Below are positions 8,300 to 53,910 of a stretch of 64,000 bases of DNA, piece by piece (positions within the stretch are counted from its first letter, which is position 1; each line of letters begins with the position of its first letter). Position numbers and translations under genes: made by a program. Below the pieces are notes generated by a model. It had not been told where the DNA came from. It saw nothing but the letters and a program-made list of their open reading frames with translations, and did not search any database. Origin of the DNA: Deferribacter desulfuricans SSM1 (GTDB lineage Bacteria; Chrysiogenota; Deferribacteres; Deferribacterales; Deferribacteraceae); assembly GCF_000010985.1 (NCBI RefSeq), contig NC_013939.1, forward strand, positions 773,501 through 837,500, read 5' to 3'.

Positions 8300-10408
8300 T
8301 TATTCATAATTTTTTAGTTTTTTAATAAATATCCTCATTGAGTTTAGAACAGCTATTAGTGCCACACCCACATCCGCAAATACTGCCTGCCACATTGTAG
8401 CAGCCCCAGCTATACCCAAAGTAATAAAAATAACTTTTACAGCTAAAGAGAATATGATATTTTCCTTAGCATTTTTTTTGGTAAGTTTAGCAATTTCGAT
8501 AGCTTTTGGCACAGATATAGGGCTGTCATCCATTATAATTATATCTGCTGCTTCTATTGTGATACTACTTCCAATACCACCCATAGCTACACCTACATCA
8601 CTAACGGCAATCACTGGGGCATCATTGATCCCGTCACCAACGAAAACTACTCTTTTCTTTTTATTTTGGGCTGATAACTTTTCTTTAATTTCATTTACTT
8701 TTTTTATTTTATCTTGTGGGAGTAGGTTTGCATAAAACTCTTTAATCCCTATTTGATTTGCAATTTTTGAGGCAGCACTGTAATTATCCCCAGTCAGCAT
8801 AATTATATTTTGGATACCGAGTTTTTTAAGTTTATCTAAAGCTAACTTTGATTCGCTTTTCACTATGTCATCGATTAAAATGTATCCCAAGAATTTGTTA
8901 TCTACTGCAACATAAACTACAGAGTGGTCAACATCACAATCATCATGTTCTATATTCATAAGATGCATAAGTCCATCATTACCAACGAAAACAGTTTTTC
9001 CAAATACCTTTGTTTTTATTCCATAACCTTTAATTTCTTCATATTCTTCTATTTTATTTATATCTATTTCACCTTTGTATTCATTGAGTATTGCTTTTGA
9101 TATTGGGTGGTTAGAGTTAAACTCTGTATAAGCAGCAAATTTCAAGATTTCTTTTTCCGTAGCTCCGTTTTTAGTTACAATTTTATTTATTTTGAATACA
9201 CCTTCTGTTAAAGTTCCTGTTTTATCAAAAGCCACAGCTCCTGTATCTGTTAAAGCTTCTAAATGATTACTACCTTTTACTATAATTCCATTTTTAGCTG
9301 TTTTGCCTATCCCTGCAAAATAAGAAAGTGGTATCGAGATTACGAGCGCGCAAGGGCAGGAAATAACAAGTAATATCAATGCACGATAAATCCATAAAGT
9401 ATAGCTTTCCTGTAAAACTAATGGAGGTATAAAAGCTATAAAGACTGCAGTATAAACAACTATAGGAGTGTAGATTTTAGCAAATTTTGTAATAAATTTT
9501 TCGGTTTTTGACTTATTTTCTGTGGCATTTTCCACTAAATCTAAAATTTTAGATATTGTAGAGTCTGAATAAGGTTTTGTAACTTTTATTTTTAGGAGGT
9601 TACTATCATTAATCATCCCTGATAATATTTCATCGCCTTTTTTTACTTTTTTTAATTTGGACTCTCCAGTTAGTGCTGATGTGTCTATAAAACTCTCACC
9701 TTCTATAACTACCCCATCTAATGGAATTTTTTCACCTGGTTTTACTACTATTATTTCACCAGCATTAACTTCGTCTGGTTTTTTAGTGATATATTTTCCA
9801 CTTTTAATTACTGTTGCGTATTCTGCTTTTAGGGAAAGTAAATTGGTAATCGATTTTTTAGATCTATCTACAGCCAGATCTTGTAAAAATTCTCCAATGA
9901 TGTAAAAAAGCATTACCGCAACAGCTTCTGGTAACTCTTTGATAAAAATAGCACCAATTGTAGCAACAACAATTAGAAAATTTTCATCAAAAAGCTGTCT
10001 ATTTTTTAAGTTGTTCAATGATTTTAAAATTACAGGGTATCCAATTAAAAAGTAGGGTATAAGGAATAAAATATATTCTACAGTTAAGTTTGGGACAGAG
10101 ATGTTTTTATAAATTAATGCGATTATGTAGAAAAAGAGAGATAAAAATATTTTTGTAAGCATAAATTTTTTGTTAAATTGTTCGTTATCATTATTTATTT
10201 TACTAAAATCGATTAATTCAACACCTGGATCAGTGCTTTTTACTATTTCATTTGCTGTGTTGAAGTAGTCTTTTTTTAGGAGAACTGTTTTATTTGTAAA
10301 ATTAACATTAATAGTATTGTCATTGAGCCCTTTTTGAAGAGCTGTTTCGATTTTTGCAGCACAACTTGGACAATCTAAATTTTTTAGAATATATCTTCTC
10401 TTATCCAT
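8300..10408 (-). CDS. Heavy-metal P1B-type ATPase (Zn2+/Cd2+/Co2+ efflux)
   Basis: A 702-residue inner-membrane pump that expels soft divalent cations using ATP. Domains in order: a heavy-metal-associated domain (LDCPSCAAKIE, residues 11-21); membrane helices from about 83; the actuator loop TGES at 247-250; the intramembrane CPC metal site at 351-353 (SCPCALVISIP, the ZntA/CadA form); the phosphorylation motif DKTGTLT at 395-401; HP at 434-435; and GDGINDAP in the hinge. The start overlaps the upstream arsR gene by 8 nt. A zinc, cadmium or cobalt substrate is favoured over copper by the CPC context and the CzrA-like repressor. Confidence 0.93.
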   Translation of the reverse strand: MDKRRYILKNLDCPSCAAKIETALQKGLNDNTINVNFTNKTVLLKKDYFNTANEIVKSTDPGVELIDFSKINNDNEQFNKKFMLTKIFLSLFFYIIALIYKNISVPNLTVEYILFLIPYFLIGYPVILKSLNNLKNRQLFDENFLIVVATIGAIFIKELPEAVAVMLFYIIGEFLQDLAVDRSKKSITNLLSLKAEYATVIKSGKYITKKPDEVNAGEIIVVKPGEKIPLDGVVIEGESFIDTSALTGESKLKKVKKGDEILSGMINDSNLLKIKVTKPYSDSTISKILDLVENATENKSKTEKFITKFAKIYTPIVVYTAVFIAFIPPLVLQESYTLWIYRALILLVISCPCALVISIPLSYFAGIGKTAKNGIIVKGSNHLEALTDTGAVAFDKTGTLTEGVFKINKIVTKNGATEKEILKFAAYTEFNSNHPISKAILNEYKGEIDINKIEEYEEIKGYGIKTKVFGKTVFVGNDGLMHLMNIEHDDCDVDHSVVYVAVDNKFLGYILIDDIVKSESKLALDKLKKLGIQNIIMLTGDNYSAASKIANQIGIKEFYANLLPQDKIKKVNEIKEKLSAQNKKKRVVFVGDGINDAPVIAVSDVGVAMGGIGSSITIEAADIIIMDDSPISVPKAIEIAKLTKKNAKENIIFSLAVKVIFITLGIAGAATMWQAVFADVGVALIAVLNSMRIFIKKLKNYE

Positions 10409-46135: not shown

Positions 46136-46175
46136 TATTTAATATATTTTAAAGATTTGTTGTTTGAAAATTTGA

Positions 46176-46293
46176 ATATCTCCGAGTGTATAAGCCTAAG
46201 GCTTAGCTAAGGTTTATACACCGGTTGGGCGTTAAAGCCCCCAGGGTATAAGTGGAAACGCTTATGCCTCCCGACTTGGAAAGGAGATGCTGG
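46176..46293 (+). promoter_or_regulatory. Molybdenum-cofactor (Moco) riboswitch aptamer
   Basis: Long structured leader before a mod/moe operon. Visible helices: ATCTCC (46178-46183) with GGAGAT (46283-46288) as the closing stem; GTGTATAAGCC (46186-46196) with GGTTTATACAC (46211-46221), a P3-like arm; GGGC/GCCC around 46227-46240; CCAG (46241-46244) with CTGG (46290-46293); and a 10-bp stem 46245-46254/46259-46268 capped by a GAAA tetraloop. GCCTCCC and GGAAAGG are elements known from Moco RNAs. The P3 arm fits Moco rather than the tungsten-cofactor variant, which is inference. Confidence 0.78.
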
Positions 46294-46300
46294 TTATAAC

Positions 46301-46338
46301 GCCGGTTATCCTAGTTGGGGGTAGCCGGCTTTTTTTTT
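46301..46338 (+). terminator. Riboswitch-controlled intrinsic terminator
   Basis: GCCGGTTATCC (46301-46311) pairs with GGGTAGCCGGC (46319-46329) through 11 positions, two of them G-T, followed by nine T. It lies directly before the ribosome binding site of the molybdopterin-binding gene. TAACGCC (46297-46303), which includes its first three bases, can instead pair with GGCGTTA (46228-46234) of the aptamer, giving an anti-terminator. Confidence 0.85.
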
Positions 46339-46348
46339 GGAGGTTATT

Positions 46349-47374
46349 GTGTTTCGAAAAGTCAAAATTGAAGATGCAGTTGGCTTGAAATTGGCACATG
46401 ATATTACAGAAGTTAATTTGGATAAAAACTTTAAGGGTGTTGCTTATAAAAGAGGTTATAAGATTAAAAATGAAGATATTGAACATTTCAAATCATTAGG
46501 TAAATATTTTGTTTACGTGATGGATGAAGAAACCTTGGAAAGTGTGGTGCATGAAGATGATGCAGCTAAGATGCTTGCTCCTTTAATTGCAGGAGAAAAT
46601 ATAGATTATGATAAACCCTCTGAGGGAAAAGTAAATTTTTATGCAAAAATTAATGGATTGCTTAAAGTTGACAAAGAAAAGATTATTGCAATAAATCGAT
46701 TGCAAATCCCATCGTTACCAACAAAACATTCAAATATCCCTGTAAAAGAAGGGGAGGTGGTTGCTGCTTTTCGTATTATCCCATTGTATTGTGATAATTC
46801 AATCATTGAAAAAGTTAAGGAAATTTTAGTTATCCCATCTTTAGATGTAATACCTTTTAAATTCAAAAAAGCAGGTGTAATTGTAACAGGTAATGAAGTC
46901 TATTATGGGAAAATTACTGATAAATTTTTGCCTAAAATTTCTTCTAAGCTTAAAAAGTTTGATGTAGAAGTTATTAAGTCTGATATTTTGCCAGATGAAA
47001 AAGATGTAATTGTTAATAAAATTAAAGAGTATATAAAAGATGTTGATATTTTATTTATTACAGGTGGTACATCTGTTGATCCTGATGATAATACTAAACT
47101 TGCAATTAGAGAAGCTGGGATTGATATTATTCAGGAGGGGAATCCTATTCAACCAGGAAATAATTTTACGATAGGTTATTATAATGATATCCCGGTTTGT
47201 GCTGTTCCTGCTGCTGCGCTATTTTATAAAGCGACTGCATTAGATATCTTTTTGCCAAGGCTAATAGCTGGTGATAAAATTTCAGTAGACGAGATAGCTG
47301 AATACAGTATTGGCGGACTGTGTCATTTTTGTAAAGTGTGTGTATTTCCAGTTTGTCCATTTGGTAAGGCTTAA
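46349..47374 (+). CDS. Molybdopterin-binding (MoeA/MogA-fold) protein
   Basis: A 341-residue cytoplasmic protein related to MoeA and to the stand-alone MoCF-biosynthesis domain proteins. N-terminal SLN-like region, then the MPT-binding core AGVIVTGNEVYYGKI and ILFITGGTSVDPDDNT. It ends with a cysteine-rich tail (CHFCKVCVFPVCPFGKA), which is absent from classic MoeA. The GTG start at 46349 is chosen since GGAGG lies 5 nt upstream and the preceding codons lie in the terminator T-tract. It shares TAATG with modC. First gene after the Moco riboswitch. Confidence 0.85.
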   Translation: MFRKVKIEDAVGLKLAHDITEVNLDKNFKGVAYKRGYKIKNEDIEHFKSLGKYFVYVMDEETLESVVHEDDAAKMLAPLIAGENIDYDKPSEGKVNFYAKINGLLKVDKEKIIAINRLQIPSLPTKHSNIPVKEGEVVAAFRIIPLYCDNSIIEKVKEILVIPSLDVIPFKFKKAGVIVTGNEVYYGKITDKFLPKISSKLKKFDVEVIKSDILPDEKDVIVNKIKEYIKDVDILFITGGTSVDPDDNTKLAIREAGIDIIQEGNPIQPGNNFTIGYYNDIPVCAVPAAALFYKATALDIFLPRLIAGDKISVDEIAEYSIGGLCHFCKVCVFPVCPFGKA

Positions 47375-48432
47375 TGATTGAAATATCTATAAAGAAATAT
47401 TTTAGAAGGAAAACTTTTGTTTATAATTTTTCTTCGAATAAGCAACGAATAGTTGTTTTTGGCCACAGTGGAGCTGGTAAATCTAATCTTGTAAAAATGA
47501 TTGCTGGATTTTACCCCCCTGATGAAGGTTTTATAAGTATAAATGGAGTTACTTTTTTTAAAAAAGGGGAGATAAATTTATCAATCGATAAGAGGAGAGT
47601 AGGGTATCTTCCTCAAGAGTACACTTTATTTCCTCATTTAACAGTTTTAAATAATATTTTATATGGTGTTAAAATAAGAAAAATAAAAGCTGACAGAGAA
47701 CTGTTTGAATTTCTTATTAATACACTTGAAATAGGTGAATATCTTGATAAGTATCCTTCAGTTTTATCAGGTGGGCAAAAACAGAGAATAGCTATTGCAA
47801 GGGCATTAATGGTAAATCCTAACATTTTATTGTTTGATGAACCCTTTTCGTCATTAGATAAACCGATAAAAGAAAGATTGATTGATTTAATCAATATTAT
47901 TTTGCAACGGATGGATAAACCAGCAATTTTTATAACACACGATATTGATGACGCATATCTTCTTGGTGATGATGTTGTGGTGATTAAAGATGGAAAGGTG
48001 ATTGAGTATGGTAATAAATCATCAATTTTTAATAAGCCTCAATATGTAGAAACAGCAAAACTAATAAATTTTAAGAATATTTGGGCGATTGATAAAGCTG
48101 GAAACGGTTATTTGATAGCCAATAATGAAAAATTATTGACTATTAATGCCATAGATGGTGCTAAATATGTAGGGATAAGACCAGAAAATGTGATGATAGT
48201 TAGAAAAGATGCAAAAGATAAAAAAGAAAATCAATTTGAAGTAGCTGTTAGGTGGATAAAAAGGCTGAGCGGGTTTTGTGAAATTAAGGTAGAACATGGT
48301 AACCTTGGAACTATTTATATTAAGTTGCCAGAACATGCTTTTAATAAATTAAATATTGTAGAAAATGAGAATATAAATATTTCTTTAAAAAGTGAATCAT
48401 TAATAACGATGAAAGAGGTTACAAATGGTTAA
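47374..48432 (+). CDS. modC: Molybdate ABC transporter ATP-binding protein
   Basis: Couples ATP hydrolysis to molybdate uptake through ModB. The 352 residues contain Walker A FGHSGAGKSN, Q-loop YLPQEYTLFPH, signature LSGGQKQRIAIARAL, Walker B ILLFDEPFSSLD and switch His ITHDIDDAYLLGD, then a C-terminal TOBE-like domain (about 240-352). The molybdate role rests on context (modA, modB, moeA and the riboswitch). The start shares a base with the preceding stop (TAATG) and the end overlaps modA by 8 nt. Confidence 0.9.
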   Translation: MIEISIKKYFRRKTFVYNFSSNKQRIVVFGHSGAGKSNLVKMIAGFYPPDEGFISINGVTFFKKGEINLSIDKRRVGYLPQEYTLFPHLTVLNNILYGVKIRKIKADRELFEFLINTLEIGEYLDKYPSVLSGGQKQRIAIARALMVNPNILLFDEPFSSLDKPIKERLIDLINIILQRMDKPAIFITHDIDDAYLLGDDVVVIKDGKVIEYGNKSSIFNKPQYVETAKLINFKNIWAIDKAGNGYLIANNEKLLTINAIDGAKYVGIRPENVMIVRKDAKDKKENQFEVAVRWIKRLSGFCEIKVEHGNLGTIYIKLPEHAFNKLNIVENENINISLKSESLITMKEVTNG

Positions 48433-49162
48433 AAAGGTTTTTATCATCTTTTTTTTGCTATGCTCATTAGGTTTTACTCAGGATATTTATTTCTATGTTG
48501 CATCATCAATGTCAAAACCTGCAAATGAAGTTGTCAATAATTTTAATAAAGTATCTAAAAATTTTAAAGTTGTATTGTTAACTGGTGGATCTGGCCAGTT
48601 ATTAAATAAAATTGTTTTTTCTAAGAAGGGGGATTTATATTTACCTGCATCTAAAACTTTTAAGGATAAAGCTGTCAAGTTAGGATTGGTGGTTGAATCT
48701 ATAGATTTATTATATCAGACACCGGTTTTTGGTTTATCAGAGAATGGGAAGAAAAAGATAAAATCTTTTGATGATATAGTAAAAAAAGATGTAAAGATTG
48801 CCCTTGGTAACCCAAAAACAATGGCTCTTGGTAAAATTTTTGAAAAAATAAAATTAAAATTACCCGAAGATATAGTGTTAGGTATTGAGAAAAATTGTGT
48901 AGTTAAAGCTGTAAATGTTGCTCAGATTGTTAATTATTTAAAAACCAATACGGTAGATGTTGGAATTGTATTTGATTCTGTAGCAAAAGTGCATGGATTT
49001 AAATATGTATCTTTTCCTGAAAGAGCTACGGTAAAAGATGTCGCAAGCGTAAATTTGTTGAATATAAGTAGCAACATTGAAAATGCAAAGATATTTCTAA
49101 AATATCTGCTTGAAAATAAAGGGATTTTCAAAAAATATGGTTTTGAAGTGATAAAACAATGA
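48425..49162 (+). CDS. modA: Molybdate ABC transporter substrate-binding protein
   Basis: Periplasmic oxyanion-binding protein of 245 residues with a signal peptide (residues about 1-18, LLCSLGFTQ). The mature N-terminus YFYVASSMSKPANEVVNNF and LLTGGSGQLLNKI carry the Ser residues that typically contact molybdate; GDLYLPASKTF and TPVFGLSENGKK follow. Overlaps modC by 8 nt and modB by 4 nt. Tungstate binding cannot be excluded on sequence alone. Confidence 0.9.
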   Translation: MVKKVFIIFFLLCSLGFTQDIYFYVASSMSKPANEVVNNFNKVSKNFKVVLLTGGSGQLLNKIVFSKKGDLYLPASKTFKDKAVKLGLVVESIDLLYQTPVFGLSENGKKKIKSFDDIVKKDVKIALGNPKTMALGKIFEKIKLKLPEDIVLGIEKNCVVKAVNVAQIVNYLKTNTVDVGIVFDSVAKVHGFKYVSFPERATVKDVASVNLLNISSNIENAKIFLKYLLENKGIFKKYGFEVIKQ

Positions 49163-49929
49163 AATTTTCAAAGGTTTCAGCTTTATTAGCTTTACTACTT
49201 TCTTTGTTGATTATGATGTTGATACTATATTCTTTTAAAGATGTTAGTCTAAGCAGTATAAAAGAAATAGTAATTGATAATGGTTTTTTATCTGCTGTGA
49301 AATTTGGTTTTTTAACAGCAACAATGGCAACATTCTTTTCAGCAATTTTTGGAATTCCTGCAGGTTATTATCTTGCAAGGCATAAAAAGGGTTTTTCAAA
49401 AGTACTCGATGTATTTTTTGATGTTCCATTAATAATTCCACCACTTGTTGTAGGGGTTTTGATACTTAATTTATTTAACTCACCTTTTTTGAGTAAATTT
49501 TTTAATGTTATTTTTGATTTTAAAGGTGCAGTAATTGCTCAATTTTTTATTTCATTCCCATTTACTTTAAAATCTGCAAAGAGTGCTTTTGAGCTTGTCC
49601 CTCCTATTTATGAAAGGATTGCAATGACTCTCGGAGCAGGTTATTTTCGTTCCTTTTATGATACCACTTTTAAACTTGCATTCAGAGGGATTGCAGCAGG
49701 GATTATGCTAAGTTGGCTTAGAAGTTTTGGTGAATTTGGTGCTACTTTGATGGTAGCTGGCGGTATTCCCGGTAAAACAGAAAATGTACCAATAAATATT
49801 TATTTAAATATGACTGAAGGTAACTTCGAAAAAGGTATTGCTGCAAGTGTTTTGACAGTTATTTTAGCATTTCTGGTTATTTCTATAATAAAAATAATTT
49901 TTGATAAAAGAAGGTGGGATGATGCTTAA
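49159..49929 (+). CDS. modB: Molybdate ABC transporter permease
   Basis: Inner-membrane permease of 256 residues with six predicted helices and the permease EAA-like coupling loop (ERIAMTLGAGYFRSFYDTTF, about 155-174). The segment SWLRSFGEFGATLMVAGGIPG is a ModB hallmark (quoted in part, RSFGEFGATLMVAGG). Start overlaps modA by 4 nt (ATGA) and the 3' end overlaps moeA by 8 nt. Confidence 0.92.
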   Translation: MKFSKVSALLALLLSLLIMMLILYSFKDVSLSSIKEIVIDNGFLSAVKFGFLTATMATFFSAIFGIPAGYYLARHKKGFSKVLDVFFDVPLIIPPLVVGVLILNLFNSPFLSKFFNVIFDFKGAVIAQFFISFPFTLKSAKSAFELVPPIYERIAMTLGAGYFRSFYDTTFKLAFRGIAAGIMLSWLRSFGEFGATLMVAGGIPGKTENVPINIYLNMTEGNFEKGIAASVLTVILAFLVISIIKIIFDKRRWDDA

Positions 49930-52096: not shown

Positions 52097-52606
52097 ATGA
52101 TTAGTAAAAAGATGGCTGAAGCATTGAATGAACAACTAAATAAGGAGCTTTTTTCTGCTTATTTATATTTATCTATGTCTGCTTATAGTGAGCATATTGG
52201 ATTGAAAGGTTTTGCAAACTGGTTTTATGTACAATACCAAGAGGAAATGACGCACGCAATGAAATTCTATAAGTATATCTTGGATCAAGGTGAGCAGGTA
52301 AAACTAAAGGCAATTGAGCAGCCAGATCAGGAATTTGAGTCTCCTCTTGATATGTTTGAAAAAACCCTAGAGCATGAAAAATTTATAACAAAGTCTATAA
52401 ATGATTTAGTAGACTTGGCTATACAAGAAAAAGATTATGCTACTCATACCTTTTTACAATGGTTTGTTACTGAACAGGTTGAAGAGGAAGCAAGCGTTAA
52501 TGAAATTTTGGATCAATTAAAGCTGGTACAAAATTCAGGGAATGGACTATTTATGGTTGATAAGGAATTGGGTAGTAGGACATTCCAGCCACCAGCAGAT
52601 GCTTAA
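52097..52606 (+). CDS. ftnA: Ferritin (non-haem FtnA type)
   Basis: Iron-storage protein of 169 residues forming a four-helix bundle that assembles into a 24-mer shell. Ferroxidase ligands are visible: Glu in NEQLNKELFSAYLYLSM, Glu-x2-His in QYQEEMTHAMKFYKYI, and QWFVTEQVEEEASVNEI. LAIQEKDYATHTFLQWF is typical of FtnA rather than bacterioferritin, and no haem-binding Met is recognised. AGGAGG precedes the start. It is monocistronic. Confidence 0.95.
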   Translation: MISKKMAEALNEQLNKELFSAYLYLSMSAYSEHIGLKGFANWFYVQYQEEMTHAMKFYKYILDQGEQVKLKAIEQPDQEFESPLDMFEKTLEHEKFITKSINDLVDLAIQEKDYATHTFLQWFVTEQVEEEASVNEILDQLKLVQNSGNGLFMVDKELGSRTFQPPADA

Positions 52607-52616
52607 AATTTCATGC

Positions 52617-52651
52617 TTGACATTTTAACTTTTGGATAGTAGTTAGATAAT
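52617..52651 (+). promoter_or_regulatory. Probable promoter of the aroF attenuator transcript
   Basis: TTGACA at 52617-52622 is a perfect -35, with several -10 candidates downstream (TAGTTA at 17 bp, or GATAAT at 52646-52651 with a long spacing). The exact start of transcription is uncertain and decides which leader start codon is used. Confidence 0.4.
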
Positions 52652-52768
52652 ATGAGTGAAGTTTTAATGATGTCCATTATTAAAAAATCAGAAATTTCTC
52701 AGATGAGTTGTCCATATTCTTATAGATTTTTTTACTTTTTTTATAACATTTTTAGAGGTGCCGCCTGA
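52652..52768 (+). CDS. Aromatic-rich leader peptide of the aroF attenuator
   Basis: A short frame encoding 38 residues, ending FYFFYNIFRGAA. Residues 22-34 contain nine aromatic residues of thirteen: Tyr 22, 24, 28, 31 and Phe 26, 27, 29, 30, 34 (codons 52715-52753). It stops with TGA at 52766-52768, inside the first arm of the anti-terminator. Alternative in-frame starts are ATG 52667, 52670 and 52703; none has a strong ribosome binding site. All keep the aromatic run. The pattern is that of pheL-type attenuation leaders. Confidence 0.7.
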   Translation: MSEVLMMSIIKKSEISQMSCPYSYRFFYFFYNIFRGAA

Positions 52769-52838
52769 ATTGGCCATAATATTGTATTAAAAAATATAAA
52801 GGCCACAGGCGGCAAAACCGCTTGTGGCCTTTTTTTTT
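52760..52838 (+). promoter_or_regulatory. Phe/Tyr transcription attenuator (anti-terminator/terminator switch)
   Basis: Arm A is GCCGCCTG (52760-52767) plus GGCC (52772-52775). Arm B is GGCC (52801-52804) plus CAGGCGGC (52806-52813). A and B are complementary over 12 bp with a small internal loop. Arm B also forms the 5' side of the terminator with arm C (52818-52829). A ribosome stalled on the aromatic codons leaves A free to hold B; one that reaches TGA covers A and lets B pair with C. Confidence 0.75.
52801..52838 (+). terminator. Attenuator terminator before aroF
   Basis: GGCCACAGGCGG (52801-52812) pairs with CCGCTTGTGGCC (52818-52829) in a 12-bp stem with one G-T and a CAAAA loop, followed by nine T. 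The AAAAGGAGG of aroF follows immediately. Confidence 0.92.
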
Positions 52839-52856
52839 ATCTAAAAGGAGGTTGTT

Positions 52857-53876
52857 ATGATTGTAGTAATGAAAATTGGAGCATCAAAAGAGCAGTTGAA
52901 AGAGGTTTGTGATAAGGCTAAAGATCTCGGTTTTACTCCGCATGTCATTTACGGTAAAGAGAGAAATGTTGTTGGTCTTGTTGGAATAGGTGGAAGAAGG
53001 GACGAGGTTGGTATAATCGAGGATCTTCCAGGTGTTGATCGAGTAGTTCCAATAACTAAACCTTATAAGTTGGCAAGTAAAGAAGTAAAGCAAGAAACCA
53101 CAATAGTTGAAGTAAATGGAGTCAAGTTTGGTGGAGAAGAGATCGTTGTTATTGCAGGGCCATGCTCCGTGGAAAATGAAGAGCAGATAATAAAAACAGC
53201 AGAGTATGTAAAAGCTGCTGGCGCAAAGATGCTTAGAGGTGGTGCTTTCAAACCAAGAACGAGTCCTTATTCTTTTCAAGGTTTAGGTGAAGAGGGGCTT
53301 AAACTTCTTGCTAAAGCTCGTGAAATAACGGGGCTTCCAGTTGTTACGGAAGTTGTTAACCCAAGAGATGTTGATGTTGTTTATAAATATGCTGATATGT
53401 TTCAAGTTGGAGCTAGAAATATTCAGAATTTTGCGCTTTTAAAATTGCTTGGGCAAACAGACAAACCTGTTTTGCTAAAAAGAGGGATGGCTACAACTAT
53501 TGAAGAGTTTTTAATGTCAGCTGAATATATCTTATCTGAAGGGAATAAAAACGTAGTTTTGTGTGAAAGAGGGATTAGAACTTTTGAAACTGCAACAAGG
53601 AATACTTTGGATATTAGTTGTGTGCCCGTGGTAAAAGAGAAATCCCATTTGCCTATAATTATTGACCCATCCCATGCATCAGGTCATTGGCATTATGTCC
53701 CTGCACTTTCTAAGGCAGCAGTGGCTGTTGGTGCAGATGGATTAATTATAGAAGTTCATCCTGATCCAGAAAATGCTATGAGCGATGGTGCTCAATCTTT
53801 GAAACCTGATGTATTTTTAAGGCTTATGGGGGAGCTGAAAAGTGTTGCATTAGCAGTTGGTAGATATTTGCATTGA
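52857..53876 (+). CDS. aroF: 3-deoxy-7-phosphoheptulonate (DAHP) synthase with N-terminal regulatory domain
   Basis: First enzyme of the shikimate pathway, joining phosphoenolpyruvate and erythrose-4-phosphate. Of 339 residues, about 1-70 form a ferredoxin-like regulatory domain as in the Thermotoga maritima enzyme, which is feedback-inhibited by Phe and Tyr; the rest is the AroA-beta barrel. Motifs are [50 protein letters not shown] and [13 protein letters not shown], with metal Cys, His, Glu and Asp. AAAAGGAGG precedes ATG 52857. An attenuator upstream would regulate transcription by the same amino acids. Confidence 0.96.
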
Positions 53877-53881
53877 GAGGG

Positions 53882-53910
53882 TGCCACTGTTTAGTGGCAA
53901 CTTCTTTTAT
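53882..53910 (+). terminator. Weak hairpin after aroF
   Basis: TGCCACT (53882-53888) and AGTGGCA (53893-53899) form a 7-bp stem with a GTTT loop, followed by ACTTCTTTTA, a poor T-tract. It probably ends aroF transcription but could leak into the TPR gene. Confidence 0.5.

Follow-up and report, generated by a model that had tools for sequence, protein, structure and literature searches.

Leader peptides have been proposed before aroF in other bacteria. In Corynebacterium glutamicum, a leader peptide containing F-Y-F is predicted upstream of the gene (PMC4046766). The uORFC-13-1 motif of Acholeplasma combines a frame with Phe codons and a terminator before aroF, for which the same mechanism as that considered below is proposed; it is reported with a ribosome-binding site (RBS), and solely in Acholeplasma and environmental DNA (PMC8632094). 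An aromatic leader before Escherichia coli aroF is a hypothesis cited in PMC8632094 and PMC2659441. Leader peptides can also be translated from the very start of a transcript: the attenuator leader peptide of Sinorhizobium meliloti trpL is made from a transcript that begins at its ATG (PMC7298713), and leaderless leader peptides are described in Streptomyces lividans (PMC8079986). A 2010 survey placed the leader peptides then known in Proteobacteria and Actinobacteria alone, before adding its own Firmicutes case (PMC2965389). The original prediction for the present locus knew of no case in Deferribacterota, and our search of the open-licence literature for leader peptides or attenuation in Deferribacter or Deferribacterota likewise found no relevant paper.

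We focus here on the region upstream of aroF in Deferribacter desulfuricans SSM1, within a window of 64,000 nucleotides (the whole stretch of DNA analysed) that is part of a 2,234,389-bp contig; the genome comprises 2,542,933 bp in two contigs. As read from the sequence and its comparison between species, this region very probably acts on aroF by ribosome-mediated transcription attenuation, with charged tRNA-Phe and tRNA-Tyr as the signal sensed (Table 1). First of all, the 38-codon frame lies exactly where it had been placed; it translates as MSEVLMMSIIKKSEISQMSCPYSYRFFYFFYNIFRGAA and ends in a UGA stop at 52766-52768, which falls within arm A as had been proposed. The claim of nine Phe/Tyr codons among the thirteen before IFRGAA needs correction, since the count there is eight, and nine is reached only when F34 is included (codons 22-34). 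Nine F/Y in 13 codons occurred in one of 2000 intergenic dinucleotide shuffles and, among the 1481 short ORFs of the window, in one other, at position 8924 with a GTG start. Second, an intrinsic terminator spans 52798-52838, between the leader frame and aroF, with a B:C pairing of 12 bp, or 15 when the A/T flanks are counted. Third, arm B can pair instead with arm A, again over 12 bp and with an internal loop; the three arms, the run of nine T and the mutual exclusion of the two pairings that share arm B are all as first described. Compared with shuffles, the terminator segment folds with a z-score of -8.0 and the anti-terminator segment with one of -5.4. The locus thus has the codon run, the intrinsic terminator and the exclusive, covarying anti-terminator of a classical attenuator, with the effect of ribosome position seen in silico.

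Table 1. Features of the aroF leader region and of related loci (plain numbers are positions in the window; L numbers denote loci)
Feature	Position	Strand	Basis or remark
-35 element TTGACA of the proposed leaderless promoter	52617..52622	+	sequence; spacing in relatives
-10 element TAGTTA (weak), 6 nt before ATG	52640..52645	+	17 nt spacer from -35
Leader peptide frame, 38 codons, Phe/Tyr rich	52652..52768	+	without strong Shine-Dalgarno
Control codons Y22-F34, core run F26-Y31	52715..52753	+	Phe/Tyr in 9/13
Arm A, 5' arm of anti-terminator, contains UGA stop	52760..52775	+	folding; cross-species pairing
Arm B, shared: 3' arm of anti-terminator and 5' arm of terminator	52801..52813	+	folding; cross-species pairing
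Arm C, 3' arm of terminator	52818..52829	+	folding; cross-species pairing
T9 run of intrinsic terminator	52830..52838	+	sequence
Shine-Dalgarno AGGAGG of aroF	52846..52851	+	strong; duplex -12.5 kcal/mol
aroF, DAHP synthase type I-beta	52857..53876	+	PF18152 (ferredoxin-like regulatory domain) and PF00793
Terminator-like hairpin 3' of aroF	53882..53899	+	hairpin/terminator search
Aromatic cluster pheA-hisC-aroF2-tyrA-aroA-cmk-ispH	L113:1548-8381	-	most names by sequence inspection
F/Y/W-rich frames before aroF in Ignavibacteria, Planctomycetota, Pyramidobacter and Clostridia	L037, L039, L040, L042, L045, L055, L068, L072, L076, L080 and others		

In the mechanism that we propose, a ribosome would load without a Shine-Dalgarno sequence at the 5' end of the transcript, which would coincide with the A of the leader's ATG or adjoin it. 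When Phe- and Tyr-tRNA are abundant, the ribosome would reach the stop within arm A and cover A, leaving B free to pair with C, and the T run would end transcription. Under shortage of Phe or Tyr, on the other hand, it would stall in the aromatic run, 8-13 codons upstream, leaving A free; A:B would then pair as B emerges, C would be without a partner, and RNA polymerase would continue into aroF. The full-length RNA at equilibrium prefers the terminator even with arm A free. Since this preference holds in either ribosome state, the switch must be kinetic, with A:B forming first during transcription. We modelled this by masking the nascent RNA with a ribosome whose leading edge was assumed to lie 12 nt past the first base of the A-site codon. 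With the ribosome on the core or the last pair of aromatic codons, B paired upstream with a mean probability of 0.70 (0.84 for the leader in the window), which dropped to 0.05 with the ribosome at the stop. The model fits poorly at three loci (L096, L098 and L100) when the stall is set at the last aromatic codon, and at L094 the A:B pairing is weak (-8.8 kcal/mol for the arm window chosen). Besides the three arms, we saw no protector hairpin; an untranslated transcript should thus read through.

AroF matches were present in all 51 genomes of the phylum that were searched, many of which match only with a second, operonic enzyme; our conservation set consists of 23 distinct leaders from the five families of the order Deferribacterales that keep this aroF. 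In all 23 the frame runs to 23-41 codons, of which 8-15 encode aromatic residues, almost always Phe or Tyr; its stop (UGA, UAA and UAG are all in use) adjoins or lies within the predicted arm A, a terminator follows that stop, and the A:B and B:C pairings compete. The absence from relatives of the aromatic run and the alternating hairpins had been named in advance as grounds for abandoning the prediction, and both are found throughout the set. F or Y makes up 36% of the leader residues, and all four F/Y codons are used (141 TTT, 53 TTC, 34 TAT and 28 TAC). Over six close species pairs, 67 of 70 aromatic positions hold an aromatic residue in each partner; substitutions are few overall, fewer than a test of codon-position bias would need. 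Covariation was assessed by alignment-free duplex energies, pairing the arms of all species against each other, because MAFFT had put the arms of some families one column out of register. Both pairings covary between lineages: with one representative for each of eight lineages, a control that does not fully remove shared ancestry, 67 of 40320 permutations of partners were as good as the native A:B combinations, and the native B:C combinations were the best of all (1/40320). Comparison thus supports the interpretation as a Phe/Tyr attenuator, through the conserved frame, the competing pairings and their covariation. Elsewhere in the phylum, three Chrysiogenes-like genomes have a leader frame of F/Y/W that includes Trp (for example YFWQYYFF), and the loci read in four genomes of family f7 have an aroF2-type enzyme only, with no leader before the gene. 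A leader is missing from one further aroF (L008), of 77% identity, whose contig is filed under Nitrospira; contamination or transfer could account for its place there.

Judged from promoter spacing, the aroF leader peptide is probably leaderless, with the transcript starting at or next to the A of its ATG. A TTGACA and a TAGTTA separated by 17 nt, the latter ending 6 nt before the ATG, predict a transcript that begins at the ATG. The distance from TTGAC to the ATG was chosen as the promoter measure because an unconstrained automatic promoter scan picked doubtful sites in several AT-rich loci. This distance is 35-36 nt in 18 of the 23 Deferribacterales, 17 of which have TA or CA as the first two bases of the -10 element, and in all eight loci tested from Geobacterales, Thermodesulfovibrionales and Desulfuromonadaceae; as background, TTGAC stands 33-37 nt before one of 60 long frames of the window. 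The five exceptions form one genus, g8 (L097, L101, L103, L104 and L105), whose aroF leaders have a 5' region of 21-34 nt with a Shine-Dalgarno sequence. In g8, the initiation mode appears to have changed within one family. Promoter-to-ATG spacing makes leaderless translation in Deferribacterota directly testable.

The same genome has a parallel system before trpE (L115, about 1219-1290), where the -35 element lies 36 nt before the ATG of the leader MKGSIIFNILKSLRNWWWQLIAI, which contains NWWW; two terminators and a series of alternative hairpins come after this leader. Of 30 trpE loci in the phylum, 24 are preceded by a frame in which six codons hold two Trp or more; most of these frames share the spacing and have a run of WWW, although chance seems to explain two or three of them, which stand in distant genomes. 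The presence of Trp leaders before most trpE genes suggests that classical attenuation is in general use in the phylum, and aroF and trpE offer two parallel natural examples with probable leaderless starts.

Frames with seven or more F/Y/W in 13 codons precede 43 of the 69 aroF loci read beyond the phylum, against 0.6 expected from shuffles. The 43 are spread over Geobacterales, Thermodesulfovibrionales, Planctomycetota, Clostridia and others, and are compared here at the level of the leader frame. F/Y/W-rich frames before aroF occur in Ignavibacteria, in Planctomycetota, in a Pyramidobacter MAG and in many Clostridia. We give an even chance to the combined reading that leaderless leader peptides are standard for attenuation in Deferribacterota (aroF and trpE) and that the F/Y(W) leader is old and shared across phyla, its start mode switching within one family between leaderless and Shine-Dalgarno; the phyla concerned, through their type I-beta DAHP synthase genes, would be Deferribacterota with the Chrysiogenes-like genomes, Desulfuromonadota, Nitrospirota, Planctomycetota and Clostridia. 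In this wider set, the peptide FYFWYGFYFRP is nearly invariant between Geobacterales and Thermodesulfovibrionales (L013-L016, L018, L019, L021 and L022), and a protector hairpin could form between its YG and RP codons, through ACGGC and GCCGT.

Such strong conservation is what one might expect of an arrest peptide, which would detect free Phe/Tyr within the exit tunnel of the ribosome, in the way that TnaC does Trp, in place of codon-by-codon sensing of tRNA, and the fixed place of the leader stop relative to the RNA arms would suit it. The Deferribacterales residues near the stop, however, are variable (GAA, AAC, CTA, RLR and VAV), aromaticity alone being kept, and the conservation in Geobacterales may stem from RNA pairing of the codons; we thus regard an arrest peptide as improbable. 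Still more improbable is that the terminator simply closes the upstream gene, or restrains aroF constitutively, with the frame an accident of T-rich DNA. A ferritin gene on the same strand (52097-52606) does precede the leader, and ferritin is also found upstream in the other Deferribacter. In other lineages, however, the upstream neighbour is a different gene, divergent in several, while leader and terminator are retained; the terminator thus belongs to aroF, a terminator of the ferritin gene was rejected, and this rival is close to refuted, all the more as the aromatic frame is far above shuffles and kept in 23/23. Scarcely credible is control of the terminator by a ligand- or protein-binding RNA (a T-box, a riboswitch or the target of an RNA-binding protein) with an incidental frame, which would accommodate the alternative anti-terminator, but no Rfam family reaches its gathering score at the leader, whereas the Moco riboswitch and RNase P elsewhere in the window do reach theirs, a T-box has no match there at gathering score or at E up to 10, and the region before the anti-terminator (52640-52780) folds no better than shuffles (z +0.65); riboswitch and T-box were rejected in view of the missing Rfam support.

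Attenuation by a translating ribosome, the reading that we favour, would act on a gene that is likely a single-gene unit, given the hairpin that follows aroF. The original prediction further held that AroF has a Phe/Tyr-inhibited N-terminal domain. The regulatory domain PF18152 is indeed present, but an Ile is aligned with Ser31 of the Thermotoga enzyme, His29 being kept. In the Thermotoga enzyme Ser31, together with His29, is a Tyr-binding residue. The sequence thus supports the claim about AroF only in part, and double control of transcription and enzyme activity by the same amino acids is plausible. AroF2, encoded in the pheA-tyrA operon, retains both His and Ser of the His-x-Ser motif; no aromatic leader was found upstream of pheA in this operon (L113), where the one terminator-like hairpin lies far upstream of pheA, just after the preceding gene. 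Upstream of pheS in the same genome (L117) is a 17-codon frame, MIVWNFYQTFFNIAKSK, with no terminator, which may be chance. Elsewhere in the window, Rfam places a Moco (molybdenum/tungsten) riboswitch at 46168-46302, and the ABC-transporter-like gene group downstream of it (47374-49929) looks like molybdate/tungstate transport.

Among known systems, the Phe leader RF01859 ranks first by bits of the Rfam families (29.2 bits, E 0.004), short of its gathering score of 55. The pheA leader of gamma-proteobacteria that this family describes also has a Phe-rich leader, a terminator and an alternative pairing before an aromatic pathway gene; the Deferribacter leader, on the other hand, precedes aroF, mixes F and Y, has three arms and has a probable leaderless start. 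The C. glutamicum leader likewise stands before a DAHP synthase gene, with far fewer aromatic codons reported and in a different phylum (PMC4046766). uORFC-13-1, which we liken to the Deferribacter leader by its description, differs in having an RBS. The S. meliloti trpL and S. lividans leaders concern Trp or other amino acids in unrelated phyla, and their starts are mapped, whereas ours is predicted. The Deferribacter aroF leader thus very probably belongs to ribosome-mediated attenuation, a known kind of control, and aroF leaders have been proposed elsewhere before; it would extend tRNA-sensing attenuation to Deferribacterota, a phylum for which we found no description, and suggests that translated leaders regulate aromatic synthesis at its entry step much more widely than the few described cases show.
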